Assembly: GCF_007991655.1 (NCBI RefSeq)
Contig: NZ_BJYT01000007.1
Coordinates: 1 to 64,000, forward strand
Reading direction: 5' to 3'
DNA length: 64,000 nt
From: Segetibacter aerophilus
GTDB taxonomy: Bacteria; Bacteroidota; Bacteroidia; Chitinophagales; Chitinophagaceae
Made by a program: the position numbers and the translations under genes. Numbering within the stretch: the stretch's first letter is position 1; each line of letters opens with the position of its first letter. Shown here one piece after another: positions 6,937 through 59,463 of this stretch. Under the pieces are notes generated by a model. It searched no databases and was not told where the DNA came from. It saw only the letters and a program-made list of their open reading frames with translations.

Positions 6937-6956
6937 CATTGTTGCGACGCATTCCG
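6937..6956 (-). repeat. interspersed intergenic repeat, copy A
   Basis: Read on the minus strand this is CGGAATGCGTCGCAACAATG, matching the family core (G)AGTGCGACGCAACGATG with a few changes. The similarity to copy B (34264-34290) extends beyond the core into about 40 further bases (GTTGAA, CTG.TGAA.GGA blocks). It lies in the 279-bp gap between mtgA and the LysE gene, which otherwise shows nothing I can name. Confidence 0.5.
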
Positions 6957-7025
6957 TTCATCAGCATCTCTTTGTTCAACTGCCAGCGCTAACGCATTTC
7001 TTTTTTTGCAACAGTTACTTGATCT

Positions 7026-7673
7026 TCAAAAGCTCATATTACTTAGCCTATCTCCAAGCGCCAATATCCCCCAAACTAAGGCAAGCCCAAAGCCAATTAA
7101 GATCATTCCGCTTACACGGTTAATGATGTGGATATTATGAGGTGTGAGTTTGTTTCGGATCTTGCCTGCAAGCATAACTTTTAGAAAATCAAATCCTGCT
7201 ACAATAACCAGGCAGGTGATATATACTACCAGCCGGTAGTTCTGCGTTTGCACCAACAAAGAAGTAGAAGTTAAAAGCCAGAACCCGATTACACTTGGGT
7301 TAAGCAGGTTCATAAAATATCCTGATAAGAATATTTTTACGTAGTGATGCGTTTCCATTTCAATAACCTGCAAACCCGCCGCGTTTACTTTTATTTTTTT
7401 GAAAAAGGTGATGTAAACACCTAGAGCAATTAACAAAGCACTTCCGCCCACTCCAATCGGAACTTTGTACTCTATAAGGTTGTCAAACATTGTTGTAAAC
7501 AGGTTGCTAATTACAACGATTGTTATATCACTTGCAGACACACCGGCAATAAAAGCAAGTCCACCTTTATGACCGTGATTTAGGCTTTGTTTGATGATTG
7601 AAAAAATAACTGGGCCTACTGAAATACTAAGCATTAATCCTAAAGCCAATCCTTTTAATAGAGCCGATATCAT
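7026..7673 (-). CDS. LysE/RhtB-family amino-acid exporter
   Basis: A 215-residue inner-membrane protein with about six hydrophobic helices. The N-terminus LALGLMLSISVGPVIFSII contains the LysE-family GPV motif, and AFIAGVSASDITIV the second conserved block. Members export amino acids such as lysine, homoserine or threonine; the substrate cannot be told here. It is a single gene with no clear operon partner. Confidence 0.85.
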   Translation of the reverse strand: MISALLKGLALGLMLSISVGPVIFSIIKQSLNHGHKGGLAFIAGVSASDITIVVISNLFTTMFDNLIEYKVPIGVGGSALLIALGVYITFFKKIKVNAAGLQVIEMETHHYVKIFLSGYFMNLLNPSVIGFWLLTSTSLLVQTQNYRLVVYITCLVIVAGFDFLKVMLAGKIRNKLTPHNIHIINRVSGMILIGFGLALVWGILALGDRLSNMSF

Positions 7674-7839
7674 TGGGGCAATTTCGTTTACTAAAAATTA
7701 CATCTTCTGTTAATTCACCTAACCTTACATTCTATAAAATTCGTCTTATTAACATGAATGTTGGACTGGAAATAAAAAACGAAACTACATTAAAATGAAG
7801 TGCGATTACTTCTTCAAATGTGATAATCCTTCTACCGTT

Positions 7840-9783
7840 TTAGACTGTCTTAAATCTTTTGTAACCTTTTATAATGATCCTAAGATCTTGCTTCCAGTCG
7901 TAGTTCTTTGCATACAAATAGTCCAGTTTAGAGATAGCCTCTTCTGTTAAAGGGGCCGCTGCAGATATAGGGTTACCGGTAACAGATAGAACACCGGGTG
8001 GCAAGGTGGGGAGAGTATGATCGTTGTGATGTACATAGCTTACCCAGGTTTTTTTTACAAGTAAAACGTCTACAGCCCGTCTCACCCAATCAATCCTGGA
8101 AACTATAAATTGAACAGGAAAAGTAATTACTAGCAGAACTGCAACAAATACATCGATTATTCGCCTCATCCTTCTCTGATAGCCCTCGGTAATTGAAAAG
8201 CTAGGGTGAGCGGAGATGATCTCCCCCAACGTATTTTTAGAATCACTTCCGACAATACTCTCGGTTTTGACTGAATAAAAGCGAACTGAAACAGTATGTG
8301 GTATTTGCTGAACCAAAGAAATGATCGTCTTAAATGAAAGGTACCCCTGGCAAAATATCACCTCTTTTACCTGGCTATTTTTTATTAGTATTTCAAGCTC
8401 GTCCAGTGTTCCTATGGCATCAACTTTTTCTTCACCTACTGCCACCCTGCCTATAACTCGCTCCTCCAACCCCGCATGTGCAAATAGACTTTTTAAGCGA
8501 TCATATTCTTCACTGCTTCCAACTATTATTGTTTGCAGAGATTGGTTTGCTTCGAAATCATCTTCTACAAATCTTGTCTTAATTAAAACCCAACGTGTAA
8601 AAGTAATTAGTATCAATGCGGTTAGACCACCAACCAAAATAACACCACGAGAGAAGCGATATTTTTCAGGTAACAAAGAGTAAACAGCAAGATTAACTAC
8701 AACAGCAACAAAAGCAGCATAGACAGCTTTTGAAGGCCTGTATCTATTATCATAAATGCCGGCAAGCGCTGCGGCAGCCAAAAAAACAAGCGTAAAGCCG
8801 GGAAGTGAAATGTCTACCAGTTGTCGCACAAAAGGTTGTCCTTGCCGAACATATGTTACCCAGCAATAATTGACAATGGTAAAAGAGGCATAAATGATAA
8901 CAGCATCGAGAAGCGGCATGCCGATTTTTAAAACAAATCTTACTATGGCTGAAATTGTTGCCCTTAACCATATCGCAACATGTATAAAAGATGCAAAAAC
9001 ATTGGCGGCAGTTCCCTGGTAATGTTTTTTTACAAAAATGCTCATCGCCATGTAAAACATCTTTACATAATTTAAGCTTCCCTTTCTGGTGCTTTCCCCT
9101 TTAAAATGAATAATGGTGCTTTCACTGAAATAGTAGTTTTTGTAACCCAACTTTTGTATGCGATAACTCAGATCAATGTCTTCTCCATACATGAAAAAAG
9201 CTTCATCAAAACCTTTTAACTGTAGTAAGATTTCTTTTCGGCTAAGTAAGAATGCGCCCGCTAGTACATCAACTTCGTGGTTCTGGTGCTGGTTGAGGTA
9301 TGCAAGAGAATAACGGGAAAAAATTCTGGATTCAGGAAACAAACTACTTAGTCCGGCAAGTTTATAAAATGCTGTCAAAGGTGTGGGAAAAGACCGTTTG
9401 CTTTCGGGTAAAAAGTCGCCACTGCCATCAATCATTCTAATTCCTAATCCACCTACTGATGCATCACCTTTCATAAACCCGATGCATTTCGTCAGGCAAT
9501 CTTCGGGCAAAATGGTATCAGGATTTAAGAACAAAATAAACTTGCCTTGGCATTCATTTAGAACCTGGTTATTAGCCTTCGCAAAACCCACATTTTCTGC
9601 ATTAGAGACAAATTGTGCTTTAGGATATCTACTCCGCAGATATTCAACACCCCCATCCGTTGATGCATTGTCTATAACCCATACTTCTGCGTCAATGTTT
9701 TCTAGTGCTGTGAACAATGAGCTTAAACACTGCTCGAGAAAGTACTTGACATTGTAATTGACTATAATAACCGATAACTGCAA
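7840..9783 (-). CDS. GT2 glycosyltransferase fused to a gutted WcaJ-like glycosylphosphotransferase
   Basis: A 647-residue two-part protein. Residues 1-270 are a family 2 glycosyltransferase (LSVIIVNYNV, WVIDNASTDG, ENVGFAKANN, FLNPDT, YGEDIDLSYRIQKLGYK). The second half has several transmembrane helices and a nucleotide-binding-like region (LQTIIVGSSEEYDRL) as in polyprenyl-phosphate sugar-1-phosphate transferases (WcaJ/PglC superfamily). It then has the helix leading into the catalytic domain (RRMRRIIDVFVAVLL) and the usual C-terminus (KLDYLYAKNYDWKQDL), but the catalytic block between them is shortened and lacks the conserved KRP and WxLLxG-like motifs. It probably adds a sugar in exopolysaccharide or lipid-linked glycan assembly, with the second half acting as membrane or regulatory scaffold. 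It is divergent from suhB. Confidence 0.8.
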   Translation of the reverse strand: MQLSVIIVNYNVKYFLEQCLSSLFTALENIDAEVWVIDNASTDGGVEYLRSRYPKAQFVSNAENVGFAKANNQVLNECQGKFILFLNPDTILPEDCLTKCIGFMKGDASVGGLGIRMIDGSGDFLPESKRSFPTPLTAFYKLAGLSSLFPESRIFSRYSLAYLNQHQNHEVDVLAGAFLLSRKEILLQLKGFDEAFFMYGEDIDLSYRIQKLGYKNYYFSESTIIHFKGESTRKGSLNYVKMFYMAMSIFVKKHYQGTAANVFASFIHVAIWLRATISAIVRFVLKIGMPLLDAVIIYASFTIVNYCWVTYVRQGQPFVRQLVDISLPGFTLVFLAAAALAGIYDNRYRPSKAVYAAFVAVVVNLAVYSLLPEKYRFSRGVILVGGLTALILITFTRWVLIKTRFVEDDFEANQSLQTIIVGSSEEYDRLKSLFAHAGLEERVIGRVAVGEEKVDAIGTLDELEILIKNSQVKEVIFCQGYLSFKTIISLVQQIPHTVSVRFYSVKTESIVGSDSKNTLGEIISAHPSFSITEGYQRRMRRIIDVFVAVLLVITFPVQFIVSRIDWVRRAVDVLLVKKTWVSYVHHNDHTLPTLPPGVLSVTGNPISAAAPLTEEAISKLDYLYAKNYDWKQDLRIIIKGYKRFKTV

Positions 9784-9884
9784 AAAGGGCTGTTTTTTTA
9801 TAGAACAACGAATTACGACCTTTTATACAATCCAACAAAAATCTAAATGTTTCGCTCTTAGAATTCCCTTTAATGACTTGACAG

Positions 9885-9892
9885 TATATTTG
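9885..9892 (+). promoter_or_regulatory. -7 promoter element of suhB-like gene
   Basis: TATATTTG matches the Bacteroidota -7 consensus TAnnTTTG. It ends only 3 bases before the chosen ATG at 9896. No convincing -33 TTG is visible. Confidence 0.5.
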
Positions 9893-9895
9893 CAA

Positions 9896-10675
9896 ATGCT
9901 TAAGCAAACACTTATCAAAGCAACCCTTGCAGGTTCAAAAGTTCTACAGCATTACTTCAATGGAAGTTTTACAGTAAGTAGTAAATCGAATATTAACGAC
10001 CTTGTTACCCAGGCGGACAAAGAGTCTGAAGAGGCCATTTTTAAAGTTATCCGCGAAGAGTTTCCAGACCATTATCTCTTAAGCGAAGAGGCAGGTGATT
10101 TGAAAATGGATAGCAATACAAAATGGATCATTGACCCCATTGATGGTACGGTAAACTTTGCCAATGGGATCCCTATTTGTTGTGTCAGCATTGGAGTGGA
10201 GCAAGATGGAAAAATGATTTTAGGGGCTGTGTACAATCCTTTTATTAACGAATTTTTCTTTTCTGAAAGAGGCTATGGTGCAACACTCAACGACCAAAAA
10301 ATAAAGGTCAGCGATAAATCCGACCTGTTGCGAAGCTGTTTGGTAACCGGATTTCCCTATTCATACCTTGACACTCCAAATGGTCCCTTACAAGTGTTTG
10401 AAAAATTGATCCGTAACAATATTCCTGTGAGGCGTTTGGGCAGTGCTGCAATAGATATCTGCTGGGTAGCTTCCGGCAGGTTCGACGGCTTTTACGAGCA
10501 TAACTTGAATGCGTGGGACAGTGCAGCAGGCTTTCTGATACTGGAAGAAGCAGGTGGTAAAGTAACCGATTTCGGTGGCAACTATTATTCTCCGTACCAG
10601 CCCAATATATTGGCCACGAACGGAAAAATACATGACGATCTGCTCCTAGCAATCAATGGTAACTGGAACCCTTAA
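9896..10675 (+). CDS. suhB: inositol monophosphatase family protein
   Basis: A 259-residue Mg-dependent, Li-sensitive-type phosphatase that hydrolyses inositol-1-phosphate or a related sugar phosphate. Metal-binding motifs are in order: LLSEEAGD (first Glu pair), WIIDPIDGTVNFANGIP, and WDSAAGFLILEEAGG near the C-terminus. The start at ATG 9896 is preferred over an upstream start 46 codons earlier because a -7 element lies just before it and the upstream residues do not resemble the family. thiL follows 36 bp downstream on the same strand, so the two are probably co-transcribed. Confidence 0.9.
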   Translation: MLKQTLIKATLAGSKVLQHYFNGSFTVSSKSNINDLVTQADKESEEAIFKVIREEFPDHYLLSEEAGDLKMDSNTKWIIDPIDGTVNFANGIPICCVSIGVEQDGKMILGAVYNPFINEFFFSERGYGATLNDQKIKVSDKSDLLRSCLVTGFPYSYLDTPNGPLQVFEKLIRNNIPVRRLGSAAIDICWVASGRFDGFYEHNLNAWDSAAGFLILEEAGGKVTDFGGNYYSPYQPNILATNGKIHDDLLLAINGNWNP

Positions 10676-10711
10676 ACCGACCAATCCTATTGTTTATTTC
10701 GATACCTTTTT

Positions 10712-11743: not shown

Positions 11744-11837
11744 CTAAATTGTTTTTAATTCTTTGCATCTCTCTAGACTGCCGACTTTACTTTACTAAAC
11801 TTATTTTCTTTTTGTAGCCGACAGCCGAAACAATGGC

Positions 11838-11863
11838 GACATTGTTGTGTCACACCTTTGTAC
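11838..11863 (-). repeat. interspersed intergenic repeat, copy H
   Basis: On the minus strand it reads GTACAAAGGTGTGACACAAC then AATGTC, a variant of the family GTACAAGAGTGCGACGCAAC-GATGTC. The end forms a small hairpin with the next bases (AACAATG tcgc CATTGTT). It lies in the thiL to S41-protease gap. Confidence 0.55.
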
Positions 11864-11975
11864 TAGTAAAAAAACTTCGGCCTTATTTTTCTAATTTTAA
11901 AAGTTAAGCAAGGGTAAGTTTTACCATTTCATCAAAAAGATTGAAAATTACAGGTAGTATATTGCATATGTGAAA

Positions 11976-13466: not shown

Positions 13467-13507
13467 ACCTTTTTGAAGAAGGTTTTCCAATTGACTAAAA
13501 CGTTTTC

Positions 13508-13780
13508 TTACTGATCGCTCTCGATATTATTCTCTTCAGGCGAGGGATCTTTAATATAATTTTCAGATCTGCCTGCATTAGAATTTTCAGGAATACTTCT
13601 TTCCTGGGTGTCTTCCCACTTGCTGCTCTGCTCGCTAATTCCTGCCTTCGGATCAACAACCCCTTGTTCTACTTTCTGACCTACACTACTTGTATTGCTG
13701 GGATCGACAGGGGCCTGGTCTCGACCAGGATTATTTGGGTTGGTTAGGTTAGGATCTACTCCTCCAATTTTATCAGCCAT
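13508..13780 (-). CDS. small acidic disordered protein
   Basis: A 90-residue hydrophilic protein rich in Asn, Pro, Ser, Glu and Asp (DPNLTNPNNPGRDQAPVDPS, PENSNAGRSENYIKDPSPEE). No hydrophobic core or signal peptide is visible, so it is probably intrinsically disordered and cytoplasmic. It resembles in style the acidic protein at 28075-28662. It ends 41 bp from the convergent S41 gene. Function unknown. Confidence 0.6.
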   Translation of the reverse strand: MADKIGGVDPNLTNPNNPGRDQAPVDPSNTSSVGQKVEQGVVDPKAGISEQSSKWEDTQERSIPENSNAGRSENYIKDPSPEENNIESDQ

Positions 13781-13818
13781 AACTATACATTTAAAACAAA
13801 TTAACTAAATATGTTATG

Positions 13819-34203: not shown

Positions 34204-34263
34204 GTTGACACTTGTCTACCGTGATTTTTTAAATTTTTGTTCACCAGCATTTATTCCGCATGT

Positions 34264-34290
34264 CACTTTTGTTGCGACGCTCCATTCAAC
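34264..34290 (-). repeat. interspersed intergenic repeat, copy B
   Basis: On the minus strand GGAGCGTCGCAACAAAAGTG, with upstream bases like copy A (GTTGAA, TGAATGAAG). Divergent family member. Confidence 0.4.
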
Positions 34291-34448
34291 AGTTGTTCTT
34301 CATTCAACTTTTAGCGATCAAAGAAGTACACGTACTGCCTCAAATTCTGACAGATTGAATGTTTTAGGCACGAATATCCAAAAACCCAAAATTTCGGATA
34401 TAGAAACTAGAAACGGGTAACCGGCACTACGTAACTAATACTATTTTG

Positions 34449-39487: not shown

Positions 39488-40993
39488 TTACGCCAATATA
39501 TCACTAATCACCTTTCCCCTCGTATCCGTTAACCTGAATGGTCTTCCCTGGAAATCGAAAGTGAATTGTTCGTGATCAAAACCTAATTGATCAAGGATCG
39601 TCGCTTGCAAATCGAAAGGCTCTACTTTGCCACTAATGGCACTATAACCAATCTCATCAGTTTCGCCATAACTATAGCCTTTTTTAATGCCGGCACCTGC
39701 CATCCACATCGTGAAAGCTTCGGTATGATGATCCCTTCCTTTAAACGGATTTTGTTTTCCCTCACGATTTTCCATCATTGGTGTACGGCCAAATTCTCCA
39801 CCCCAAACAACCAGTGTTTCTTCCAGCAATCCGCGTTGTTTTAAATCCAGGATTAACGCGGTTATACACTTGTCAATTTCCCTGCATTTGTTAATCAGGC
39901 CTATGTCAACCGCTCCATCCGCACTAGTTCCATGAGTATCCCAACCCCAATCAAAAAGTTGGATAAAACGAACGCCTTTTTCCACCAGTTTTCTTGCAAG
40001 TAACACGTTGTTAGCGAAGCAAGCCTTTCCTGGTTTTGTTCCATACATATCATGTATGTATTGTGGCTCATTATTTATATTCATTACTTCCGGTGCAGTT
40101 ATCTGCATTTTAAAAGCCATCTCGTATTGAGAAATACGCGATAGAATTTCCGGGTCCTGGTATTCTTTATATTCCTCCGCGTTTACCTGGTTAATAGCAT
40201 CAATGGAAGCCTTGCGTAAATCTCTGTCCATCCCATTAGGGTCTTTAATAAACAACACCGGGTCTCCTTCACTACGGCATTGAACCCCCTGGTAAACACT
40301 CGGTAAAAATCCGCTTCCCCAAACACTTTTACCTGCATCGGGGTTCTGTCCTCCACTTGTTAAGACGACAAAACCCGGCAGGTTTTGGTTCTCAGTTCCC
40401 AATCCATAGGTTGCCCATGAGCCGAGACTTGGTCTTCCTAATCTTGGCGAACCCGTGTGTATCATTAATTGTGCAGGTGCATGATTAAACTGGTCTGTTG
40501 TGACTGCTTTTAAAAAACTTAGCTCGTCAGCAACAGTGGCAAGATGAGGCATATTTTCGCTGACGTAAGCCCCGGACTGTCCATGCTGGGCAAATTTTGC
40601 CTGTGGTCCAAGCATTTTCGGAACGCCGCGAATGAAAGCAAACTTCTTCCCCTGAAGCAGTGATGGCGGACAGTCCTGCCCATCCATTTTCATAAGTTCG
40701 GGCTTGTAATCAAACAACTCCAGTTGAGATGGAGCTCCGGCCATGTGCAGGTAAATAACGCTCTTTGCTTTAGCGACGTTTGGTGGCAACTTTGGCAAGA
40801 GTGGATGTGCGGGATCAAAAGTTATAGGATTGTGAGACGCTTTATTGCCGCAGCTGCTAAACAACGAGCCAAGTGCCAATGCACCCAAACCCATTGCACT
40901 TTCTTTTAGAAAATGTCGACGAGTGTGCATTTGCAATACTGCTGCCTGCGCTTCCTTTACCAGGCGTTGATTATGTAATTCTTTTTGTGTCAT
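39488..40993 (-). CDS. DUF1501 protein (Tat-exported lipoprotein)
   Basis: A 501-residue DUF1501 protein related to sulfatase/alkaline-phosphatase folds. A twin-arginine signal starts near residue 24 (TRRHFLKESAMGLGAL) and is followed by a Cys (LFSSCGNK), so it is Tat-exported and probably lipid-modified. Family blocks: SVIYLHMAGAPSQLELFDYKP, FAQHGQSGAYVSENMPHLA, NHAPAQLMIHTGSPRLGRPS, FIQLFDWGWDTHGTSAD, EETLVVWGGEFGRTPM and GRDHHTEAFTMWMAGAGIK. In planctomycetes such genes are always near PSCyt1/DUF1553 partners, as here. Substrate unknown. Confidence 0.93.
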   Translation of the reverse strand: MTQKELHNQRLVKEAQAAVLQMHTRRHFLKESAMGLGALALGSLFSSCGNKASHNPITFDPAHPLLPKLPPNVAKAKSVIYLHMAGAPSQLELFDYKPELMKMDGQDCPPSLLQGKKFAFIRGVPKMLGPQAKFAQHGQSGAYVSENMPHLATVADELSFLKAVTTDQFNHAPAQLMIHTGSPRLGRPSLGSWATYGLGTENQNLPGFVVLTSGGQNPDAGKSVWGSGFLPSVYQGVQCRSEGDPVLFIKDPNGMDRDLRKASIDAINQVNAEEYKEYQDPEILSRISQYEMAFKMQITAPEVMNINNEPQYIHDMYGTKPGKACFANNVLLARKLVEKGVRFIQLFDWGWDTHGTSADGAVDIGLINKCREIDKCITALILDLKQRGLLEETLVVWGGEFGRTPMMENREGKQNPFKGRDHHTEAFTMWMAGAGIKKGYSYGETDEIGYSAISGKVEPFDLQATILDQLGFDHEQFTFDFQGRPFRLTDTRGKVISDILA

Positions 40994-41037
40994 TAATTCT
41001 TTTTATGGTTCCGGCCAGGAACATCTATGAAACTTTA

Positions 41038-41240
41038 CTTGCGTCGCACTCTTCTACCTTTTGATCATTATTCGGCTCTTTCTTTCACCACATAGAAACA
41101 CTAGAAATATAGGAAGCACATAGAAAGGGCTTTTTTAATCCTTTTTTCTAAACTATGTGAAAACCTATTGTACCTATGATCCTATGTGGTTAAACCCTGT
41201 CAAATAGTATTTCTAAAAGTACAAGTGAGTGACACAACCC
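41038..41240. mobile_element. MITE-like element with inverted repeat ends
   Basis: About 203 bp between the DUF1501 and DUF1553 genes. The ends are inverted copies of the interspersed repeat: left 41038-41057 (minus, GTAGAAGAGTGCGACGCAAG) and right 41219-41240 (plus, GTACAAGTGAGTGACACAAC). Inside lies a long imperfect hairpin, arms 41086-41124 and 41153-41192, built of ACCACATAG / CACATAG units. No ORF or transposase. The class is inferred from structure only. Confidence 0.45.
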
Positions 41241-41282
41241 AAGTTGAAATAACTACACTTGCTTGTGCCAAAAGACGCTATC

Positions 41283-44039
41283 TTAATTCTTCATTACAAC
41301 TTCATCCAGGTTTAGAATCGCGTTTGCGATAACCGTGAGTGCTGCTGTTGCAGCCTCGGTTGGATATCCTGTGTTGCCATTCATGTCACACGTTTTTACC
41401 GGGTCGTTTTTAAACTTATTAAAAGCTTGGTTATATAAATTCATCAAAACCTTGGTTCTTCTTTCGTCTATCTCATGGTTTGTTGCTAACGCATACCCGG
41501 TTGCAATTTGCTTAGACACATTTCCCCCTCCCTGGTTTTGCATACGTGCAGCAAGATGTCGGGCAATATCTACATACACAGAGTCATTCAATGCAGTCAG
41601 CGCTTGTAAGGGAGTGTTGGTGCGAATACGGCGAGCCGTGCAAATTTCGCGTGAAACACCATCGAAAGTTAACATCGAAGGGTAAGCAGCTGAACGCTTC
41701 CAATATGTGTACACCGCCCTGCGGTACTGGTCCTCGCCCGTACTTTGTCTCCATTTTGCACCATTGTATGGTGAAAGCCAAATGCCTTCGGGCTGGTAAG
41801 GAAATACGCCGGGTCCATACATTTTATGGCTAATTAAGCCGCTTATGCATAAAGCCTGATCCCGCACTTGTTCTGCAGACAAACGAACCCGTACACCACG
41901 GCTGTAATATTTATTGTTTGGATCTTTTTCGAGCAATTCCTTCGTTACTCTCGAGTCCTGTTGATACGTTGCACTTAGAACGACTTTTCGAATCAATTTT
42001 TTTACACTCCAGTTATCGTCGGTCATAAACCTGTAACTGAGCCAGTCAAGTAGTTCAGGATGAGTTGGGGCGATACCTTGTGAACCTAAGTCCTCCTGCG
42101 TTTCGGCAAGTCCCGTTCCGAATATCTGTTCCCAAACACGGTTGACCATGGTACGGGCAGTAAGCGGGTTTTGGTTAGAAGTTAACCACATCGCGAGCCC
42201 AAGCCTGTTACGCGGCGCCTTAGCTGGAAATGGGTTCAGTGATTTAGGTACATCAGGTTGCACCATTTCTCCTTTTGTTAACCAGTTTCCCCTTTCAAAA
42301 ACATACGAAGCCCTATGCATAGAAGAGGGATTATCCATCATGACCGGAGTAGTGGGAACATTGGTGGAAACGAGTTTCAAGTATTGATTTTTTATATCGG
42401 CATAACCTACTTTGTCTTTCCCGGGAAATTCCTGCGTGAAATAAAACCAGTCGAATAAAGCCCCGTTAGTTGTAGGCTTGCTCAGATTTTTGTTTGTATA
42501 AGTAAAGTACAAATCGTGTCTCCCATTGAAACCGGCAATTTTCGATTCAGTGATTGTCCAACCTTTGGCTTGTGGTAATTGTATGGTTGCTAACAAGGGG
42601 CCAGCTGGGTTGTCGATATGTATTTGCCAAACTCCTCCGGATGTATCAGCCTTATACCGAAACATCAATTGATCCCGGCTTTCAAGGTCTACATTTTTTA
42701 AACGGCATAAAGCGTTGTTTCTTAAAGCAAGCCATTTAGTATCGCTCAACTCGCTATTTGTAAAGCTGTCGCAGGTTAAAGAGTTGTACGCGGGCTGCCA
42801 GGTTTTAAGGAATGTATTTACTTCTGCTGCCTTTTGTGGCGATACATTTTGTTGCACCCATTTAACCACATTGTTTACTTGTTGCTGCAAAGTGTCATCG
42901 TAGTGGCGAAGCAAAGGATAATCTGAAAAAGTGTCTTCATCGCGCGTATCGTTGAAGAAAGCCATGAACTTATAATAGTCTTCATGCTTAAATGGATCAT
43001 AAGGATGAGCATGACATTGCACACAAGCGAAAGTGGTTCCCATGGCTGCCTGCCAGGTTGTATTGACCCTGTCTAAAACAGCAGCAGTTCTAAACTCTTC
43101 GTTTTCTGTTCCCCCTTCATCGTTTGTCATGGTGTTGCGATGGAATGCGGTAGCGATATAATCGTTATCAGTTGCGCCGGGAAGAAGGTCGCCTGCAATT
43201 TGTTCTGTAAGAAAAAGGTTGTAGGGTTTATCCTCGTTAAATGCACGAATCAGCCAATCCCTGTATTTCCAAATGTTGCGGCTGTCATCTCTTTCGTAAC
43301 CTTTGGTGTCAGCATAACGAGCAAGATCGAGCCACATAGACGTCCACTTTTCTCCGTAGTTTGGCATTGCTAATAAAGAGTCTACCAGTTCTGCATAAGC
43401 AGTTTCCCTGTTATCCTGCAAGTATTTGGTCGCCAGCTTTTCAGGTGCGGGCATTCCAATAATATCTAGGCTAACCCTTCTTAGTAACGTCTTTTTATCT
43501 GCTTGTGCGGAGGGCTTCAAATCCTGCTCGTCAAGTTTCTGTTGAACGAAATTATCAATAGGATTTTTCGCCCAGTCTTTCGTCTTGTTAATGAGGCCGA
43601 AAAAAGTGGTAGCCTGAGGAACAGGAACATCTTTGACCGGAACGTAGGCCCAATGCTCACCCCATTGCGCACCTTGCTTCACCCATTTCGTTAGTATATC
43701 AATCTCTTCCTTGCTTAAGGGATCGTGCTTGTACGGCATCCTTTCTTCCGGATTTTTTAGATTAATCCGCCTGATCATTTCGCTCTTACCCGGGTCGCCG
43801 GGAACAATTCCAAACTTACCTGATTCGGTTTTAGCCAGCGCTTCTTCACGAAACAATAAACTAAAACCGCCCTTTTGCCGAACTCCACCATGACAAGTAA
43901 TGCAGCTTTTGTTGATGATGGGTTTTACTTGCGTAGTAAAATCAATACGGGAACTGCGAGTTAGAAAAACAAACGAGCAGGCTGTTACAATAATGAAGAT
44001 GGCAACAATTAAAAGCTTTGATGAGAGCAAGGGCTTCAT
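41283..44039 (-). CDS. PSCyt1/DUF1549/DUF1553 haem protein
   Basis: A 918-residue secreted protein with the planctomycete-type order: membrane or lipoprotein anchor (IVAIFIIVTACSFVFL), a PSCyt1 haem domain (CITCHGG, Cys46, Cys49, His50), a DUF1549 region (NFVQQKLDEQDLKPSA, LLRRVSLDIIGMPAP, MWLDLARYADTKGYERD) with a second, CxxCH-type site in FACVQCHAHPYDPFKHEDYY, and a DUF1553 region (NRLGLAMWLTSNQNPLTARTM, SATYQQDSRVT, EICTARRIRTNTPLQALTALND). It is the first gene of a run with the DUF1501 protein, a TIM-barrel epimerase and the cytochrome-LRR protein. It probably serves an extracytoplasmic redox or polysaccharide step. Confidence 0.94.
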   Translation of the reverse strand: MKPLLSSKLLIVAIFIIVTACSFVFLTRSSRIDFTTQVKPIINKSCITCHGGVRQKGGFSLLFREEALAKTESGKFGIVPGDPGKSEMIRRINLKNPEERMPYKHDPLSKEEIDILTKWVKQGAQWGEHWAYVPVKDVPVPQATTFFGLINKTKDWAKNPIDNFVQQKLDEQDLKPSAQADKKTLLRRVSLDIIGMPAPEKLATKYLQDNRETAYAELVDSLLAMPNYGEKWTSMWLDLARYADTKGYERDDSRNIWKYRDWLIRAFNEDKPYNLFLTEQIAGDLLPGATDNDYIATAFHRNTMTNDEGGTENEEFRTAAVLDRVNTTWQAAMGTTFACVQCHAHPYDPFKHEDYYKFMAFFNDTRDEDTFSDYPLLRHYDDTLQQQVNNVVKWVQQNVSPQKAAEVNTFLKTWQPAYNSLTCDSFTNSELSDTKWLALRNNALCRLKNVDLESRDQLMFRYKADTSGGVWQIHIDNPAGPLLATIQLPQAKGWTITESKIAGFNGRHDLYFTYTNKNLSKPTTNGALFDWFYFTQEFPGKDKVGYADIKNQYLKLVSTNVPTTPVMMDNPSSMHRASYVFERGNWLTKGEMVQPDVPKSLNPFPAKAPRNRLGLAMWLTSNQNPLTARTMVNRVWEQIFGTGLAETQEDLGSQGIAPTHPELLDWLSYRFMTDDNWSVKKLIRKVVLSATYQQDSRVTKELLEKDPNNKYYSRGVRVRLSAEQVRDQALCISGLISHKMYGPGVFPYQPEGIWLSPYNGAKWRQSTGEDQYRRAVYTYWKRSAAYPSMLTFDGVSREICTARRIRTNTPLQALTALNDSVYVDIARHLAARMQNQGGGNVSKQIATGYALATNHEIDERRTKVLMNLYNQAFNKFKNDPVKTCDMNGNTGYPTEAATAALTVIANAILNLDEVVMKN

Positions 44040-48010: not shown

Positions 48011-49098
48011 GAAACAATTAGTTTATTTCCCATTTCTTTTTGCCATTGTTCCATTCCGCCTTCAACGCTATATACCTGTACATCGTGATTATAGTCACGC
48101 AGAATATTCGCTGCTTTTATACTTCTCCCTCCTTTTTGACAAAGGGTGACAACCAGCATTGTGGTTTTTGAAGCAACACTTCGAACATCAAAATTCGAAA
48201 GGGGCTGAAGAACAGATTTTACCAGGTGGCCTTGCTGATATTCCTCCTGTTCGCGAACGTCGAGCAATAAAAACTCCTTTTCAGAATTCAGCCATTCAAA
48301 CAATTGTTTCGGTTTTAAAGTAGGAATAGTAGAACAATTGGGTGCATGGTAATTATCCTGTAACTCCTTGATCCTTTTGTTTTCTGGCTTTGCTTTCAGC
48401 TTAACCTCGTATTGATCATTATTTAGCAAGTCAAAAATTCGGAGATAGCCTGAAGCCGTTTTTCCAATTCCGGTAATCACTTTTACGGCTTCTAAAGCCT
48501 GGTGCGTTCCAATAATGCCGGGAACCACACCGAGAACTCCGGCAGTATTACAATCAGGAATTTCGCCAGGGGAAGGATAATCGGGATAGAGACAGCGATA
48601 GGTCGGTCCATCCTTCAAATTAAAAACGCTTACATGACCTTCGTACTCCTGGATGGCTCCGTAAATAAAAGGCTTCCCAAGGATAACACAGGCATCGTTG
48701 ATTAGGTAACGTGCACTAAAATTATCCGTAGCATCTATTACTACATCGTACTCCTCAATAATTCCCAGCGCGTTATCTACGCTTAGAAATACTTCGATCA
48801 GATTTATTCTAATGGAAGGATTTTGTTGAGCAAGTTTTTTTGCAGCAACCGCTGCTTTAGACATTCCAACCTCAGACTCATAGTAGAGCACCTGCCGGTT
48901 TAGATTGGTGATTCCAATTGTGTCTCCGTCAACAACTCCGATTGTTCCGACGCCCATTCCTGCCAGGTATAATAAAGCAGGAACGCCAAGACCACCAGCT
49001 CCCACAACCAATACTTTTGAGGTTTGAAGCTTTTCCTGTGCTTCAGCTCCAAAGCCTTTTAAATTTATTTGTCTGCTATATCGTTCAGGAAAAATCAT
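48007..49098 (-). CDS. moeB: MoeB/ThiF-type adenylyltransferase with rhodanese domain
   Basis: A 363-residue two-domain enzyme. The MoeB/ThiF part has RYSRQINLKGFGAEAQEKL, VLVVGAGGLGVPALLYLAGMG (ATP site), GVVDGDTIGITNLNRQVLY, DATDNFSARYLIND and PSPGEIPDCNTAGVLG. The C-terminal rhodanese domain has LLLDVREQEEYQQGHL and the active Cys in VVTLCQKGGRS. It would adenylate the MoaD C-terminus and supply sulfur to it. ATG 49098 is used because it fits the family start; a GTG at 49155 would add 19 residues encoded by an interspersed repeat. Confidence 0.93.
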   Translation of the reverse strand: MIFPERYSRQINLKGFGAEAQEKLQTSKVLVVGAGGLGVPALLYLAGMGVGTIGVVDGDTIGITNLNRQVLYYESEVGMSKAAVAAKKLAQQNPSIRINLIEVFLSVDNALGIIEEYDVVIDATDNFSARYLINDACVILGKPFIYGAIQEYEGHVSVFNLKDGPTYRCLYPDYPSPGEIPDCNTAGVLGVVPGIIGTHQALEAVKVITGIGKTASGYLRIFDLLNNDQYEVKLKAKPENKRIKELQDNYHAPNCSTIPTLKPKQLFEWLNSEKEFLLLDVREQEEYQQGHLVKSVLQPLSNFDVRSVASKTTMLVVTLCQKGGRSIKAANILRDYNHDVQVYSVEGGMEQWQKEMGNKLIVS

Positions 49099-49137
49099 TG
49101 AAAAGTTTTTGGTTACCGGCTGTGGTAAAGGTCTCAT

Positions 49138-49243
49138 CATCGTTGTGTCACTCACTTCAACGGCAATTGCTGGTTTTCAACGTTTTTTTGATCGTTTCGC
49201 TCAATCGCTAAAAAATGTACAAGAGTGCGACGCAACGATGTCC
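49138..49243. mobile_element. short inverted-repeat element (repeat pair)
   Basis: About 106 bp upstream of moeB. The left end CATCGTTGTGTCACTCACTT (49138-49157) is an inverted, imperfect copy of the right end AAGAGTGCGACGCAACGATG (49221-49240), with CATCGTTG and CAACGATG at the outer edges. It resembles the pair at 41038-41240 but lacks the internal hairpin. No ORF. It may also carry transcription signals. Confidence 0.5.
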
Positions 49244-49279
49244 GATTTTTGTTATAGCGCCGGGCTCATAGAACCTAAC

Positions 49280-50272
49280 CTATCCGCCTAAAAACGACAT
49301 TGACTTATGTGCCACTTCATTGCTTAAGGCCTCGGCTTCAAAACCATTTTTTGCGCGCATGCTTACGGCAGCTAAAATCTCCTCCTGGATTTCTTCTTCG
49401 GAAGCACCAGCCCGCATAACATCACGAAGATTGACAGCAGCAGGACCATACAAACAAGTTCTTAACTCACCTGTTGCAGACAAGCGGATGCGATTACAGG
49501 TTCCGCAAAACGTTCTGCTGAAAGATGGGATAATACCAAACGAACCTTTATAACCAGGGATTTTATAATTGACAGAAGTGGAGCTGATCTCACTTTCCAA
49601 CTTATGAATAACCGGAAAATGTTGATTGATGTAACGGTACACCTCTTTGTGGTCCCAGATGGGAACGGCAAAAGAGTCACTTCCATTGAAAGGCATTTCC
49701 TCAAGGAAGCGAACAGAGAGATCATGATTTTTTGTAAGCTCCACAAATGGAATGATGTCTTCTGTGTTTTTTCCTTCAGCCAGTACACAATTCAGTTTTA
49801 CATCGAAGCCATGCTCAAGCAATTTAAAAACACCTGCATACACAGACTCAAAACTGTCTCTTCTTGTTATTTCGTAAAAGCGATTACGGTCAAGAGAATC
49901 GAGGCTTAGATTAATCTTTTTGATGCCCATTTCCTTTAAAGCCAAAATATTCTTCGTCGTAAAACTTCCGTTGCTAGTGATTGAAATTTCCTGCAACCCG
50001 GGTATTGCGCTTATATTTTCAAGGAAAGGAATCAGGCCCGCTCTCACAAATGGTTCGCCACCTGTGATCCTGATTTTAGATACGCCCATCGAACAAAAGA
50101 TATTGGACAGCAGGTACATTTCATTAAAGGATAAGAGGTCTGAACGCTTGGCAAAATTTACCCCTTCCTCGGGCATACAGTAGTAGCACCTGAAATTGCA
50201 CCGGTCTGTGACCGAAAGCCTCAGGTAGGTGAGCTGCCTTCCGTATTTATCAATCAATAACTTATTTTCCAT
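49280..50272 (-). CDS. moaA: GTP 3',8-cyclase
   Basis: A 330-residue radical-SAM enzyme that starts molybdopterin synthesis from GTP. The radical-SAM triad is CNFRCYYC near the N-terminus (TDRCNFRCYYCMPEEG). ITGGEPFVRAGLIPFL follows. The C-terminal Fe-S site has FCGTCNRIRLSATGELRTC. Length is normal. ATG 50272 is chosen; an in-frame GTG at 50278 lies next to the moaE stop. Part of the minus-strand operon. Confidence 0.97.
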   Translation of the reverse strand: MENKLLIDKYGRQLTYLRLSVTDRCNFRCYYCMPEEGVNFAKRSDLLSFNEMYLLSNIFCSMGVSKIRITGGEPFVRAGLIPFLENISAIPGLQEISITSNGSFTTKNILALKEMGIKKINLSLDSLDRNRFYEITRRDSFESVYAGVFKLLEHGFDVKLNCVLAEGKNTEDIIPFVELTKNHDLSVRFLEEMPFNGSDSFAVPIWDHKEVYRYINQHFPVIHKLESEISSTSVNYKIPGYKGSFGIIPSFSRTFCGTCNRIRLSATGELRTCLYGPAAVNLRDVMRAGASEEEIQEEILAAVSMRAKNGFEAEALSNEVAHKSMSFLGG

Positions 50273-52208: not shown

Positions 52209-52209
52209 T

Positions 52210-52704: not shown

Positions 52705-52838
52705 TGCTTGATAAATTCTTATAAAATTAGCTCATCCAATGTTATGTTGCTCGTGAAGCGTCGGTTACAATTACTTAAAGTTTGGTTTATGCTACCCTGC
52801 TAACATAGCGATCATTAGCAGTTGAGTTGAAAATGGAA

Positions 52839-52864
52839 GTACAAGAGTGCGACGCAAGAATGCC
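52839..52864 (+). repeat. interspersed intergenic repeat, copy E
   Basis: GTACAAGAGTGCGACGCAAG then AATGCC, with AGCGATCATTAGCAGTTGAG just upstream. It lies between moaC and the DUF5686 gene. Confidence 0.65.
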
Positions 52865-52894
52865 GGGCTATTTGTTGTTGCCAGGTATAAAAAC

Positions 52895-52928
52895 AAAAAC
52901 CGCCCCAGATAAATCTGAAACGGTTTTT
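52895..52928 (-). terminator. rho-independent terminator of DUF5686 gene
   Basis: AAAAACCG (52895-52902) and CGGTTTTTTT around 52921, with inner CAGAT/ATCTG pairs; 50 bp from the DUF5686 stop. Confidence 0.78.
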
Positions 52929-52977
52929 TTATTGGGGGGAGCTTTTCAGGATATATAATCTCTTTTATTCGTCTTTA

Positions 52978-55533: not shown

Positions 55534-55717
55534 AACAAAATATTAAACGAATAAGGGCTGTAACAAAAGCTGTCTCTTATCCGGTCTAATACATTTCCAA
55601 TTCGTTACAGCCCCACAGAAAGTGTTTATTATTCGACGTGCAAAATTGCCACAACTTCAGCCGCCAACTAATGTCTAAACTTCTGATTTATATGTCTAAA
55701 AGGAGACTCTTGCGCAT

Positions 55718-56617
55718 TTATAGGCTTGAGCGATAGTCGGAAGGGTTTGTGCCGGTATGTTTTTTAAAGAACTTACTGAAATAAAACTGGTCGCTAAAGT
55801 TGAGTTCCTCCGCCACCTGCCCGATCGATTTGGAGAAGTTGTTCAATAGCACCTTTGCTTCCATAATGACCATTTCATCGATGAAATCTCCTGCAGTTTT
55901 GCCGGTGATTTGTTTAATAGTTTGGGTTAGATATTTTGGAGTAATGAACATAAGGTCCGCGTAAAATTTAAGCCCCCTTTCGTTCTTAAAATGCAGCGGA
56001 AGCAATTTCATAAATCTCATTACGAGGTCCTCCTTTCTCGTGATCTTAAGATGCACCGTATTGCTCTTTCTGAAAAGGAAAGCAATCTCAAAAATCAGTG
56101 CACTAAAACCATGATAGATGAATTCATCCCTAAAAAAAACCTCCTCTCTTAAAGAGCTTTTTCTGTGAAGAATTGAAAATAGCTGAAATAGTATCTCGGT
56201 ATTATTTTCCCCCAGTTTCACCACAGGCTTTGCCTGGGAAGAAAAAAAGTCAAACGCGTCAATATTTTTTTTATGCAGACCAGAGTGCATTAAAAAGTCT
56301 TGCGTAAATCCTACGCCTATGTAGTTGCAATTGCTGCTAATGCTAAGAAATTGGCGGACGTCGTTTGGAGAAATTATTAAGAGATTGTGTTTTTCTACTA
56401 AATAATCTATCAGGTTAAGTTTAAGACGAGCATTTCCTTCAGTTACCAAAACGATAGTGAAATGGTCGGAACGATAAGGATAATTGACCGGAAGTCTTTG
56501 AAGCTCCTTATTTCTTTCAAAAACATAAAAATCCTTCTCAGCGTCCTCCTCGCCCATTGCAGATAAAAGCTGCTTGATAGTATGATGCTTAACGAAGGTG
56601 TTTTGCAAAGGAGACAA
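55718..56617 (-). CDS. AraC-family transcriptional regulator
   Basis: A 299-residue regulator. The N-terminal sensing part is cupin-like (HFTIVLVTEGNARLKLNLI, HNLLIISPNDVRQFLSI). The C-terminal pair of helix-turn-helix motifs is LMFITPKYLTQTIKQITGKT and GQVAEELNFSDQFYFSKFFK, then HTGTNPSDYRSSL. The start is TTG 56617; ATG 56557 is the next possible start but removes N-terminal residues usual in the family. It lies 80 bp downstream of the beta-lactamase-like gene on the same strand and may control that gene or others. Confidence 0.92.
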   Translation of the reverse strand: MSPLQNTFVKHHTIKQLLSAMGEEDAEKDFYVFERNKELQRLPVNYPYRSDHFTIVLVTEGNARLKLNLIDYLVEKHNLLIISPNDVRQFLSISSNCNYIGVGFTQDFLMHSGLHKKNIDAFDFFSSQAKPVVKLGENNTEILFQLFSILHRKSSLREEVFFRDEFIYHGFSALIFEIAFLFRKSNTVHLKITRKEDLVMRFMKLLPLHFKNERGLKFYADLMFITPKYLTQTIKQITGKTAGDFIDEMVIMEAKVLLNNFSKSIGQVAEELNFSDQFYFSKFFKKHTGTNPSDYRSSL

Positions 56618-56697
56618 AAGATAATTTGAGGTTGATGGCTTTGTAAAAGTAAAGCAAAGGAGTTTAATAGATTAAAAGCCAAAACCTGCAAATTGGG

Positions 56698-57996
56698 TTA
56701 ATTGTCAACGTCCTTAATAGTAGGTCTTGTATCGCTTTTATCCCGCTGCTCGTATTGTATTGTAAAGGCGGATAAGTTGGGTTTAAAGGGCCGGGACCTT
56801 TGAAGCTCATGATTGTATATCGTTTGTCCCAGTTGGGAGAAGAAAGGATAGCCTATAGTTTCATAGTCATATTTATTGTCGTTTAGGATTTCATCGCTAT
56901 TTACATACAAAGTAGCAGACAACATAAATTCGACGTTGTTTTTAAAATCAGCCACGTAGGACACGTCAGTCATAAAGCCATAAGCCCAACCGACTTTATT
57001 AAAGACTCTTATATTATGTGGCAAGCTGTGATTATCGTTGAAAAAGAACTTTACGTAACTGTCAAAATACTTCGAGGTATCGTATTTAGGGTAGTTAGTT
57101 TCTGAAGGAAATTGAGAAAGGTATTGAAGTAGAAACTGCCTGTCGTCGCTGCTAATATCGAAACGTTGCTTCTTTGGAAAACTTTCCGGAAACAAAACAG
57201 ACTGTAGCATAGAATGAAGGTCTTTAAGAGAGAGATTGTTGTGCATGGTAAAATCAAAGGGCTCGTTAACAAGGCTATCATTTTTATCTAAATATCCCTT
57301 TCCAAGTTTCACGGTATGGCTAAAATCAAAACTGTCTGTGTTATATGCGGAAGGCTGTCTGTAAATAGTAGTTCCGTCTTCGTTTATAAATCGTACCTGG
57401 TTTGTGTGTCGGTTTTGTTCAGGCGTCAGGCCCATAAATTGTCTTGTTATTCTTACATCCTTATAGCCTTTACTGTGTAGATTTCGGTTGATGTATTGTT
57501 GCCCCAGGAACTGGTACATCCGGTTATAAGCATCGTTATCACTAACGAGAAAAGCTTTTTTTATATAGTGCGCAATAGACGGAAAACCATTTTTAGAAGT
57601 TGGGTCGGCAAAGGATGGTTTTTGCCAATCGGACGAGCTATCGATCTGCAGGGAGGTTAATTTATTTACCCCTTTAGCTTGCAGTTTTTTCAACTTCTCC
57701 AACGAGAGAAATGCAAGGGGCATTTTTACTGTGGAAGCCGGGTTGAAGTAAAGAAGCGGATCGTAATTGAAATAATAGTTTTTGAAATGGGGCGCGTTAT
57801 TCTTGTCCCTATCGATTTGGGTGTAGATAACCTGGCAACGATACTTTGTCGGATTGGTGATTACTTGATTGAAAATGTCATTTTTATTTTGTTGGAAAAT
57901 GGACTGGAGCAAGGCATCACTTTTTGGTTGAGCAGCTATAAAATTACTTCCTGCGAGTACGACGGTAAACATAAATAAAACAAAGCCTTTTTGCAT
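56698..57996 (-). CDS. class-A beta-lactamase-like serine hydrolase
   Basis: A 432-residue secreted hydrolase. Signal peptide MQKGFVLFMFTVVLAGSNFI is followed by a beta-lactamase/transpeptidase-like fold. The catalytic Ser-x-x-Lys is in PASTVKMP (Ser88, Lys91), the SDN loop in LVSDNDAYNRMY (residues 152-154), and KVGWAYGF takes the place of KTG. It is about 140 residues longer than typical class A enzymes. The natural substrate is unknown, so drug resistance is not implied. ATG 57996 is preferred over an upstream start that would put 20 extra residues ahead of the signal peptide. Confidence 0.85.
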   Translation of the reverse strand: MQKGFVLFMFTVVLAGSNFIAAQPKSDALLQSIFQQNKNDIFNQVITNPTKYRCQVIYTQIDRDKNNAPHFKNYYFNYDPLLYFNPASTVKMPLAFLSLEKLKKLQAKGVNKLTSLQIDSSSDWQKPSFADPTSKNGFPSIAHYIKKAFLVSDNDAYNRMYQFLGQQYINRNLHSKGYKDVRITRQFMGLTPEQNRHTNQVRFINEDGTTIYRQPSAYNTDSFDFSHTVKLGKGYLDKNDSLVNEPFDFTMHNNLSLKDLHSMLQSVLFPESFPKKQRFDISSDDRQFLLQYLSQFPSETNYPKYDTSKYFDSYVKFFFNDNHSLPHNIRVFNKVGWAYGFMTDVSYVADFKNNVEFMLSATLYVNSDEILNDNKYDYETIGYPFFSQLGQTIYNHELQRSRPFKPNLSAFTIQYEQRDKSDTRPTIKDVDN

Positions 57997-58198
57997 AGAA
58001 CGGAAATTAGTAATTGTAGCAGTAGAAAACCTTTTTAAGTAAAACAAAATAGTCATCGAAAAAGGTTAAAAGCTGGGATCTTTTATTTTTCCTGTTACCC
58101 AGCAAGTTGAAGTACGCTTATTTCAAATTTGTTAAGTCTTTTTCATATGACGCTTTGCAACCAATTATTTTTCTTAAAATTGAGAACGATTTTACTCT

Positions 58199-59026
58199 AT
58201 GGCAATTTTCTCGGTTAGCACCATTCTCATTTTTCTAAACATTCTTGTTTCTTATAGAGGTTTCAAAGACCCATCTTTCTTTGATCGATATGCTTTTCAG
58301 ATTGATAAGGTATTAGTTTATAAAGATTATAAGCGCCTTGTTACTTCAGGGTTTCTGCATGTTGGCTGGCCTCACCTCCTTTTCAATATGTTTTCGTTAT
58401 ACATATTTAGTGGTAGTCTTGAAAGTGTGATCGGTCCGGTAAACTTTCTTATTATTTATACGGCTGGTCTGATTGGAGGCGACTTACTAAGCTTGTTTAT
58501 TCATCGCTATCACCCGGACTACAGTGCGGTTGGTGCGTCAGGAGCCATTTTCGCCATCATGTTTTCTGCAATTGCCATCTTCCCTGGAATGAAGATTGGC
58601 TTTTTCTTTCTGCCCGCAATACCGGGATGGCTATTCGGACTGGCCTATGTGCTTTTCTCTATTTATGGCATCAGGTCGAGAACAAACAATATTGGTCATG
58701 ATGCTCATTTAGGTGGAGGACTCGCCGGGATGTTAGTTGCTGTATTGCTTTATCCTTCGATGATCATTGAGAACAGCTTCGCACTTTTAGTGGTCGCTGT
58801 TCCCGCAATTGCGTTTATTCTGTTTATTCTTTATAAACCGCACGCCCTGTTGATTGATAATTATTTTTTTAAAAATCATCGTCCTCTCACGGTAGAAGAT
58901 AAGTATAACCTTAACAAACGAAATCAGCAACAAGACCTGGATAAGTTATTGGAGAAAATACACCAGCGCGGGATAGATAGTTTATCAAAAAAGGAACGTG
59001 AAATGCTGAAGGAATACTCTAAATAA
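58199..59026 (+). CDS. rhomboid-family intramembrane serine protease
   Basis: A 275-residue membrane protease with at least six helices. Rhomboid features: FLHVGWPHLLFNMFSLYIF, the active GASGAIFAIM (Ser114) and the catalytic His in HDAHLGGGLAG (His170). A cytoplasmic C-terminal extension (from about 215) is rich in Lys, Glu and Gln (NKRNQQQDLDKLLEKIHQRG). It cleaves membrane-proximal substrates within the bilayer; the target is unknown. Single gene. Confidence 0.92.
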   Translation: MAIFSVSTILIFLNILVSYRGFKDPSFFDRYAFQIDKVLVYKDYKRLVTSGFLHVGWPHLLFNMFSLYIFSGSLESVIGPVNFLIIYTAGLIGGDLLSLFIHRYHPDYSAVGASGAIFAIMFSAIAIFPGMKIGFFFLPAIPGWLFGLAYVLFSIYGIRSRTNNIGHDAHLGGGLAGMLVAVLLYPSMIIENSFALLVVAVPAIAFILFILYKPHALLIDNYFFKNHRPLTVEDKYNLNKRNQQQDLDKLLEKIHQRGIDSLSKKEREMLKEYSK

Positions 59027-59178
59027 AAATGAGGCAATTTGCCCCAATTTTAAAAGTATTTTGACAAGTGAAAGTTAATTAGCGTCCTAAAGGACGAGCC
59101 GAGATCTGGCCGTATTTAAGAATTAAAATCTATTTGCTAGATCCGGTTTGGAAGTTAAATTCAAGTAGTAGTTGCTAT
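59027..59178. other. first part of a long gap
   Basis: The rhomboid-to-helicase interval (59027-59562, 536 bp) starts here. It holds GTCCTAAAGGAC, a short palindrome at about 59083-59094, and nothing else I can name. The remainder holds a possible small gene and repeat copy F. Confidence 0.5.
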
Positions 59179-59322
59179 TTACGAGGGCGAGTTGAGCAAC
59201 ATATATAGGCTACCCGCACCAAGAACTAACACAAGCAGTACAAGACAAACAACAGACGAGCGACTTTTAGAGCTTGAAAGATTATCAACTACCCCTTCAA
59301 ACCATTCAGACATTATTTTCAT
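59179..59322 (-). CDS. small single-pass membrane protein
   Basis: A 47-residue frame from ATG 59322 to TAA 59179. After a polar start (MKIMSEWFEGVVDNLSSS) and basic residues (KSRSS) comes one hydrophobic helix VVCLVLLVLVLGAGSLYMLL ending in NSPS, a layout of small bitopic inner-membrane proteins. No promoter match is clear. Function unknown, and it could be a chance frame, though the topology is convincing. Confidence 0.5.
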   Translation of the reverse strand: MKIMSEWFEGVVDNLSSSKSRSSVVCLVLLVLVLGAGSLYMLLNSPS

Positions 59323-59436
59323 AAATATCGGTTTTAGATATTGTTAACAATAGCGTGCCAAAAGTGTAACGTCAATAAACCTTTTTTATTGCCTAGATAA
59401 AATACGAAGTTGAGAGAGACGAATGAGGTAAAAACC

Positions 59437-59463
59437 GTACAAAAGTGCGACGCAACGATGTCC
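59437..59463 (+). repeat. interspersed intergenic repeat, copy F
   Basis: GTACAAAAGTGCGACGCAAC then GATGTCC, nearly identical to copy D (49217-49243). It lies 100 bp upstream of the uvrD-like gene. Confidence 0.7.

Follow-up and report, generated by a model that had tools for sequence, protein, structure and literature searches.

What are the related short sequences that recur in the gaps between genes along one stretch of the Segetibacter aerophilus genome? The stretch (hereafter the window) comprises 64,000 nt of contig NZ_BJYT01000007.1, from assembly GCF_007991655.1 (5.89 Mb, 79 contigs; genome G000). An initial annotation had listed nine such sequences and proposed repetitive extragenic palindrome (REP)- or bacterial interspersed mosaic element (BIME)-like elements, the ends of miniature inverted-repeat transposable elements (MITEs), or a family of binding sites. 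We confirmed that the repeat family is real and larger than had been noticed. In our preferred reading, to which we assign a probability of roughly 0.55, the copies are old, non-autonomous interspersed repeats of mobile origin, restricted to one bacterial family, REP-like, hairpin-free, and carrying a core predicted to be a double-stranded protein site. The observations on which this reading rests are the copy number, the intergenic location, the asymmetric unit, a dyad in the core, the inverted neighbours, the proximity of 3' ends to genes, the wide range of copy numbers within one genus, and carriage by a MITE in a congener. Nearly all copies are without terminal repeats, and the family is not a true REP family.

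The window contains four matches to the core GTACAAGAGTGCGACGCAAC at up to three mismatches (41038, 49217, 52839, and 59437), against none in 100 shuffles. Across the whole genome, 349 core matches were found at up to three mismatches, whereas reversed-pattern controls gave 0 and 1; the family claim holds in this count of the core against chance. A weight matrix derived from these matches was run over a sample of three contigs totalling 864 kb; it detected 115 copies there and none after the sequence was reversed, and extrapolation from this sample gives about 785 copies per genome. The shuffled and reversed controls, in the window, the genome, and the sample, rule out a chance origin of the core matches. 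Both orientations occur, as had been claimed, in similar numbers (187 and 162 of the 349 matches).

We also built a sequence-only profile of 79 positions, R1, whose 50 source copies came from several genomes, with 14 taken from G000 contigs other than that of the window and none from the window itself. R1 recovered all nine listed sites, each of which holds a related sequence (expect value, E, 3.6e-14 to 0.0052), and gave a weak tenth match at 61986-62020 (E 0.051). Because the tenth site is orthologous to an intact copy in genome G006, it is, judging from the alignment, a decayed copy. The proposed short repeat corresponds to a genuine core, but the full unit of about 75 nt is larger than the sequences first listed. 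Likewise, the near-identical set is not copies D, E, F, and C, as annotated, but the sites at 41038, 49217, 52839, and 59437, which share a core subtype labelled GCGACGC. The copies are as follows.

Copy A, 6906..6956, minus strand: R1 match at 6906-6946 (E 0.0052); the 5' half and the first part of the core are lost, and this site, first listed from 6937 to 6956, retains only the 3' half of the unit.
Copy B, 11809..11870, minus strand: core GTACAAAGGTGTGACACAAC; E 6e-7.
Copy C, 34234..34309, minus strand: core GTTGAATGGAGCGTCGCAAC, a minor subtype; E 1.3e-5.
Copy D, 41001..41077, minus strand: GCGACGC subtype; E 3.6e-14; 3' end 7 nt from the gene start at 40993.
Copy E, 41208..41273, plus strand: GTGACAC subtype; E 1.6e-9; 3' end 9 nt from the gene stop at 41283, 5' end facing copy D.
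Copy F, 49106..49181, minus strand: GTGACAC subtype; E 9.1e-11; the likely moeB ATG (49098) lies 7 nt from its 3' end.
Copy G, 49209..49272, plus strand: exact GCGACGC core; E 1.5e-12; the gene stop at 49280 lies 7 nt from its 3' end; forms an inverted pair with copy F.
Copy H, 52820..52894, plus strand: GCGACGC subtype; E 2.4e-11.
Copy I, 59418..59490, plus strand: GCGACGC subtype; E 5e-11; the orthologous G006 copy differs by three core changes.
Probable decayed tenth copy, 61986..62020, minus strand: E 0.051; its orthologue is the intact G006 copy (L296:2435).

Copies that share a gap (41001-41273 and 49106-49272) have their 3' ends 7-9 nt from the neighbouring genes, and the single copies lie 65-261 nt from the gene on their 3' side. 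All nine annotated sites are intergenic when moeB is read from the ATG at 49098, 7 nt past the element end, which opens the protein MIFPERYSRQ. Crude gene calls had placed the moeB start at 49140; the longer frame results from reading through the element, and the coding overlap that the initial annotation allowed for (49138-49155) is only apparent.

Aligned in register, the copies share a single asymmetric layout about 75 nt long. A box resembling GCTGAATA lies about 20 nt before the 20-nt core, which is followed by GATG and AATAG; after a variable stretch come GCYGG and an A-rich end (AAAAA). The core exists in two main subtypes, GTACAAGnGTGCGACGCAAC and GTACAAGTGAGTGACACAAC, labelled GCGACGC and GTGACAC; core positions 11 and 15 assign 52 and 60 of 116 G000 copies to them, with minor variants besides. 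These two positions covary, reading C-G or T-A in 202 of 206 copies (G000 and G001, score above 20, full flanks), and lie symmetrically about the centre of a GYG-N-CRC dyad. Four consensus-like sequences, folded as RNA and as DNA, were no more stable than shuffles (z from -0.01 to +1.42). RNAalifold predicted no pairs over 50 copies, and the search for conserved pairs or RNA secondary structure that the initial annotation had suggested was negative here. Two or three pairs closing a loop of three bases do not make a stable hairpin, and neither the folding tests nor RNAalifold revealed a REP-type palindrome of 20-40 bp with a stem-loop. The consensus core starts with GTAC; it has no unpaired GTAG or CGTC tag and no stem beside which such a tag could stand. 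The dyad would instead be the site of a protein gripping double-stranded DNA, and the core is probably a protein site.

The copies lie almost exclusively between genes, coding overlap being judged by our own crude gene calls. In G000, 116 of 117 copies are extragenic and one falls in a coding frame, against a coding share of 87%; this comparison with coding density bears out the annotated intergenic bias. Copies in a coding frame number 1 of 95 in G001 and 0 of 31 in G003 (coding shares of 84% and 79%), and 0 of 41 in G103; two Ferruginibacter genomes together have 3 of 64, and the named contigs 4 of 228. Among these sets, only the G000 sample is close to unbiased; the G001, G003, G103, and Ferruginibacter stretches were chosen around matches, and the named contigs were found via the pattern itself. 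Hundreds of fixed-core copies might suggest a DNA-uptake signal (DUS) or a strand-orientation signal (KOPS), but signals of these types occur inside genes too, whereas coding copies are nearly absent here. The similar numbers in the two orientations and the length of the unit also speak against such a signal, which we consider barely credible.

Within 120 nt, stops are faced more often by the 3' end of a unit than by its 5' end in G001 (60 vs 20 of 207 genes), G000 (61 vs 33 of 660), and the named contigs (97 vs 59 of 728). This preference is not general, because it is weak in G103 (20 vs 15; 97 genes) and absent in Ferruginibacter (604 genes), where 3' ends face 26 stops and 29 starts and 5' ends face 20 stops. 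The 3' ends are also nearer to genes than the 5' ends, with medians of 80 (G000) and 83 nt (G001) from the core, compared with 142 and 162 nt. Inspection by eye of 13 sites in low-copy genomes revealed no common neighbour gene.

Units placed just past stops could be an RNA element or a transcription terminator in 3' untranslated regions, read antisense to the unit. In the tandem gaps of G000, an intrinsic terminator was predicted for 4 of 45 genes with a facing unit and 44 of 169 without (p = 0.015), which favours a terminator role. However, the convergent gaps of G000 are equal in this respect (5 of 12 with a unit, 17 of 50 without), and G001 gave 7 of 30 with and 10 of 27 without in tandem gaps, and 9 of 26 and 3 of 7 in convergent gaps. 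The folding results count against an RNA, as do the Rfam searches: the window gave no match at the gathering threshold, eight loci gave only two tRNAs, and one locus gave four weak matches far below the gathering scores. A structured RNA family was rejected, since folding, RNAalifold, and Rfam yielded neither a conserved structure nor a match, and we regard an RNA element or terminator as quite improbable.

The orientation of neighbouring copies was counted over six sample sets (G000, G001, G103, G003, Ferruginibacter, and the named contigs), pooled with duplicates removed; two named-contig pairs repeating counted sequence were left out, and orthologous copies of both Ferruginibacter genomes were each counted. 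Below 350 nt, 65 of 66 neighbouring pairs are on opposite strands, the pattern of frequent inverted and rare same-strand dimers expected of REPs. The excess persists at 350-4000 nt, with 156 opposite and 36 same-strand pairs of 192 (binomial p = 5e-19; in G001 alone, 15 of 47 are same-strand), and fades at 4-8 kb (45 and 35 of 80; p = 0.31). A lower score cut-off added one same-strand pair under 400 nt, in G001. The preference for facing stops cannot explain this excess, because it would yield same-strand runs along tandem genes. Selection against direct repeats flanking genes would explain it.

The subtypes within inverted pairs gave a weaker signal. Unlike subtypes are paired in 33 of 56 cases against 25.3 expected (p = 0.024); we regard this preference as weak because it is clear in G000 and G001 combined (21 of 28) but the named contigs do not show it (12 of 27). 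Minus-plus pairs at 1-2 kb share the same core subtype in 5 of 5 cases in G103, 3 of 5 in G000, and 3 of 8 in G001. The five G103 pairs (L338-L343) bracket ordinary-looking genes, with a mean of 0.6 core mismatches against 2.9 expected. Gene conversion between inverted neighbours is possible in this genome. We rejected the idea that these pairs are the ends of 1-3 kb insertion sequences, as the enclosed open reading frames resemble ordinary genes by eye, no family search having been run.

Among the genomes surveyed, the unit is confined to one bacterial family. Exact matches to GTACAAGNGNGYGACRCAA occurred in 30 of 79 relatives, comprising all ten genomes of the genus (that of the window included), 20 of 38 in the rest of the family, and 0 of 31 outside it. 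R1 matched 54 of 119 genomes, ten from Segetibacter and 44 from elsewhere in the Chitinophagaceae, and none beyond; this survey counted at most 39 matches per genome under stricter filters, and a few of the 54 rest on one weak match (for example, G015, E 0.002, and G085, E 0.007). These two surveys supply the comparison with related genomes that had been proposed. Among the matches listed, at least the named records with the unit belong mostly to genera of Chitinophagaceae such as Segetibacter, Ferruginibacter, Niabella, and Parafilimonas; some are titled only Bacteroidota, Bacteroidetes, or Chitinophagales, and three (L125, L147, and L159) Sphingobacteriales. Within the ten Segetibacter genomes, exact copies range from 2 (G008) to 1112 (G001), with controls at 0. 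Because of this range within a genus, we read the copy numbers as amplification behaviour.

Two Ferruginibacter genomes, G079 and G080, with about 95% identity over 100 kb, allowed a close comparison. They hold 50 and 62 exact copies, respectively, and the comparison covered stretches of both (20 each). At 13 orthologous sites the core is identical at 255 of 260 positions, against 1634 of 1806 in the flanks (Fisher p = 4e-6). These sites were selected on their G080 scores, a choice biased towards intact cores, and the difference should be read accordingly. The high core identity suggests constraint, or conversion between copies. Six distinct orthologue alignments within Segetibacter and the wider family gave another picture: three sites were kept, whereas at the other three one of the two aligned sequences had a lost or broken copy. 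Over nine rows (six distinct sites) the core was no better conserved than the flanks (0.78 vs 0.71-0.78). In the gap 40993-41283, G007 has one plus-strand copy of the same subtype as copy E, two G009 contigs carry copies, an altered one among them, the copy in G005 is broken, and G008 has none. Among 50 rows of orthologous gaps, not all distinct, nine were spanned by one alignment, 20 had a unit on the other side, and 21 had none.

These comparisons bear on the idea that the copies are host-owned, the core being bound by a nucleoid, insulator, or transcription-end protein, with inverted pairs bracketing genes and selection holding the sites near gene ends. The covarying dyad, the conserved cores of the Ferruginibacter pair, the 3' ends facing stops in G001 and G000, and the opposite-strand neighbours across genes all favour it. 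Conversely, congeners differ in copy number by as much as about 500-fold, half of the distinct orthologue alignments outside Ferruginibacter have a copy lost or broken on one side, with cores overall no better kept than flanks, and the low-copy genomes present no common neighbour gene. The stop preference fails in Ferruginibacter and is weak in G103, and the score-based choice of the 13 sites favoured intact cores. We consider host ownership somewhat unlikely. The suggested binding-site family is accordingly upheld in its covarying dyad and in a core conserved in one species pair, but weakened by orthologues elsewhere that lose copies, and its protein is only predicted.

A MITE carries the unit in Segetibacter sp. 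3557_3 (G003), where 13 of 32 sampled copies remain nearly identical far past the unit borders. This MITE is 132-192 bp long, has 19-bp terminal inverted repeats (TIRs) of the CAATGTCGTTTAGTTAAGC type, and occurs 22 times in 400 kb (L273-L292). Of the 22, 12 contain the plain unit, seven a long form with a GC-rich insert, and three an altered form recognised by eye. A 10-bp target duplication matches at nine or more bases in 16 of 22 cases (eight exact) when a one-base shift is allowed; among 462 mismatched pairings, 4 did so. Within two mismatches, G003 contains 138 occurrences of the end sequence (control, 0). Among the places listed, there was no convincing 1-2 kb pair that could represent an autonomous, transposase-bearing partner.

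Plain units (117 G000 and 96 G001 copies) have inverted repeats in their flanks no more often than controls do, and the TIRs of a MITE are lacking. One G000 copy, C1:377735 (in L049), is an exception, flanked by a perfect 16-nt inverted repeat resembling the G003 MITE ends; the 864-kb G000 sample contains two MITE-end matches at up to four mismatches. Because plain G000 and G001 units, apart from this copy, have no such flanks beyond control level, the MITE most likely captured the unit. The suggestion of MITE ends consequently fails for G000 (1 of 117 copies with MITE-like flanks) and succeeds in the congener, where the unit lies inside a real MITE.

Other repeats adjoin or interrupt some units. 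A GC-rich insert (CCGTCCGAAC..GTTCATCCGGGCGGG) is present in 11 of 14 G003 rows, in most of them directly following the GYGACRC of the core and preceding its CAACGATG (L274, L282, L284, L287, L288, L290, and L291), and by eye it resembles CGTC-tagged REPs, as though one repeat were nested in another. Also by eye, a different repeat like GATTGCTTCGTCGTTCCTCCTCGCAATGACG stands just ahead of several G001 units (L259, L260, L261, and L262), and a CCCGATAGCTATCGGGA-type palindrome lies within the variable part of two G021 units (L195 and L201).

REPs are described in one survey (PMC3733652) as intergenic and present in many copies, with inverted dimers common and same-strand dimers rare. The present copies match this description, which would suit a true REP family moved by a REP-associated tyrosine transposase (RAYT). 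Y1 transposases (PF01797) are present in 44 of 59 relatives, but their number is no guide to that of the units: G033 combines 147 exact copies with no Y1 match, and G008 seven Y1 matches with two exact copies. The 30 Y1 loci of the family represent 29 places (L221 and L345 coincide), the fetched subset of the Y1 places listed. A unit lies in the fetched stretch at E 0.01 or better in six of these 29, a point in favour of a true REP family that is offset by the roughly five expected from unit density by rough hand estimate. A Y1 transposase or RAYT as mobilizer is unsupported. In G022 (L344:1651-2097), a Y1 gene stands between hisD- and hisC-like genes (by eye), with a unit directly after it. 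REP membership is unsupported because Y1 does not track copy number and its proximity is near chance; with the hairpin and the GTAG end tag also missing, a true REP family is very unlikely. The REP/BIME-like label thus fits in lifestyle (intergenic, many copies, inverted pairs) and fails on the absent hairpin and the untracked Y1 genes.

Under our preferred reading of old repeats of mobile origin, a single protein would recognise the core in double-stranded form, the likeliest candidate being the enzyme by which the repeats formerly spread. The copies would have arisen in lineage-specific bursts, the survivors being those that broke no gene, and they would now be mostly inherited vertically and slowly lost. 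Same-strand neighbours would be rare since recombination between direct repeats would delete the intervening gene. The core may later have acquired a mild host role as a binding site.

Several points weigh against this reading. No mobilizing enzyme was found, the Y1 genes tested across relatives failing to track copy number. The Ferruginibacter pair gives no clear insertion polymorphism as a sign of present-day mobility, all 13 sites in its aligned stretches being shared. For a further G080 copy (L310:11667) we found no counterpart in G079, to which the surrounding stretch of about 1.7 kb cannot be aligned. The orthologous gaps contained no clean empty site for a plain unit, their lengths differing without a clean 75-nt step, and target duplication was seen only for MITE-borne copies. 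Finally, the orientation pattern ascribed to selection against direct repeats would arise equally if the inserting enzyme favoured such placement or if inverted pairs had a function.

A bolder version would have up to more than 1000 inverted double-stranded sites bracketing single genes as boundary elements for one predicted protein, spread as mobile DNA and then adopted by the host; we think this unlikely. Whichever holds, the REP-like pattern of many intergenic, inverted copies, for which a hairpin is usually held responsible, is here separated from the hairpin. The opposite-strand excess up to about 4 kb offers a quantitative handle on direct-repeat selection or site-pair function, and the unit-carrying MITE represents one route by which such units get moved.

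We recognised no description of this repeat in the open-licence literature. The unit resembles the REP/BIME elements of the GTAG and CGTC super-families, as described by Di Nocera 2013 (PMC3733652), in being intergenic, high in copy number, variable among relatives, and commonly arranged as inverted and rarely as same-strand dimers. It differs from them in having no stem-loop and no GTAG tag, in its length of about 75 nt rather than 20-40, and in that we found no RAYT link. Like bacterial MITEs, it is non-autonomous, short, and intergenic, and in G003 it forms a MITE interior; unlike them, plain G000 and G001 units have flanking inverted repeats at control level, with C1:377735 as the exception. 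The matS, parS, and NBS families of nucleoid- or chromosome-organising sites share with it a short, conserved, dyad-bearing core and many sites. Compared with these families, the present unit is asymmetric, about 75 nt long, and far more numerous, its copy number is unstable within a genus, and its binding protein is only postulated.

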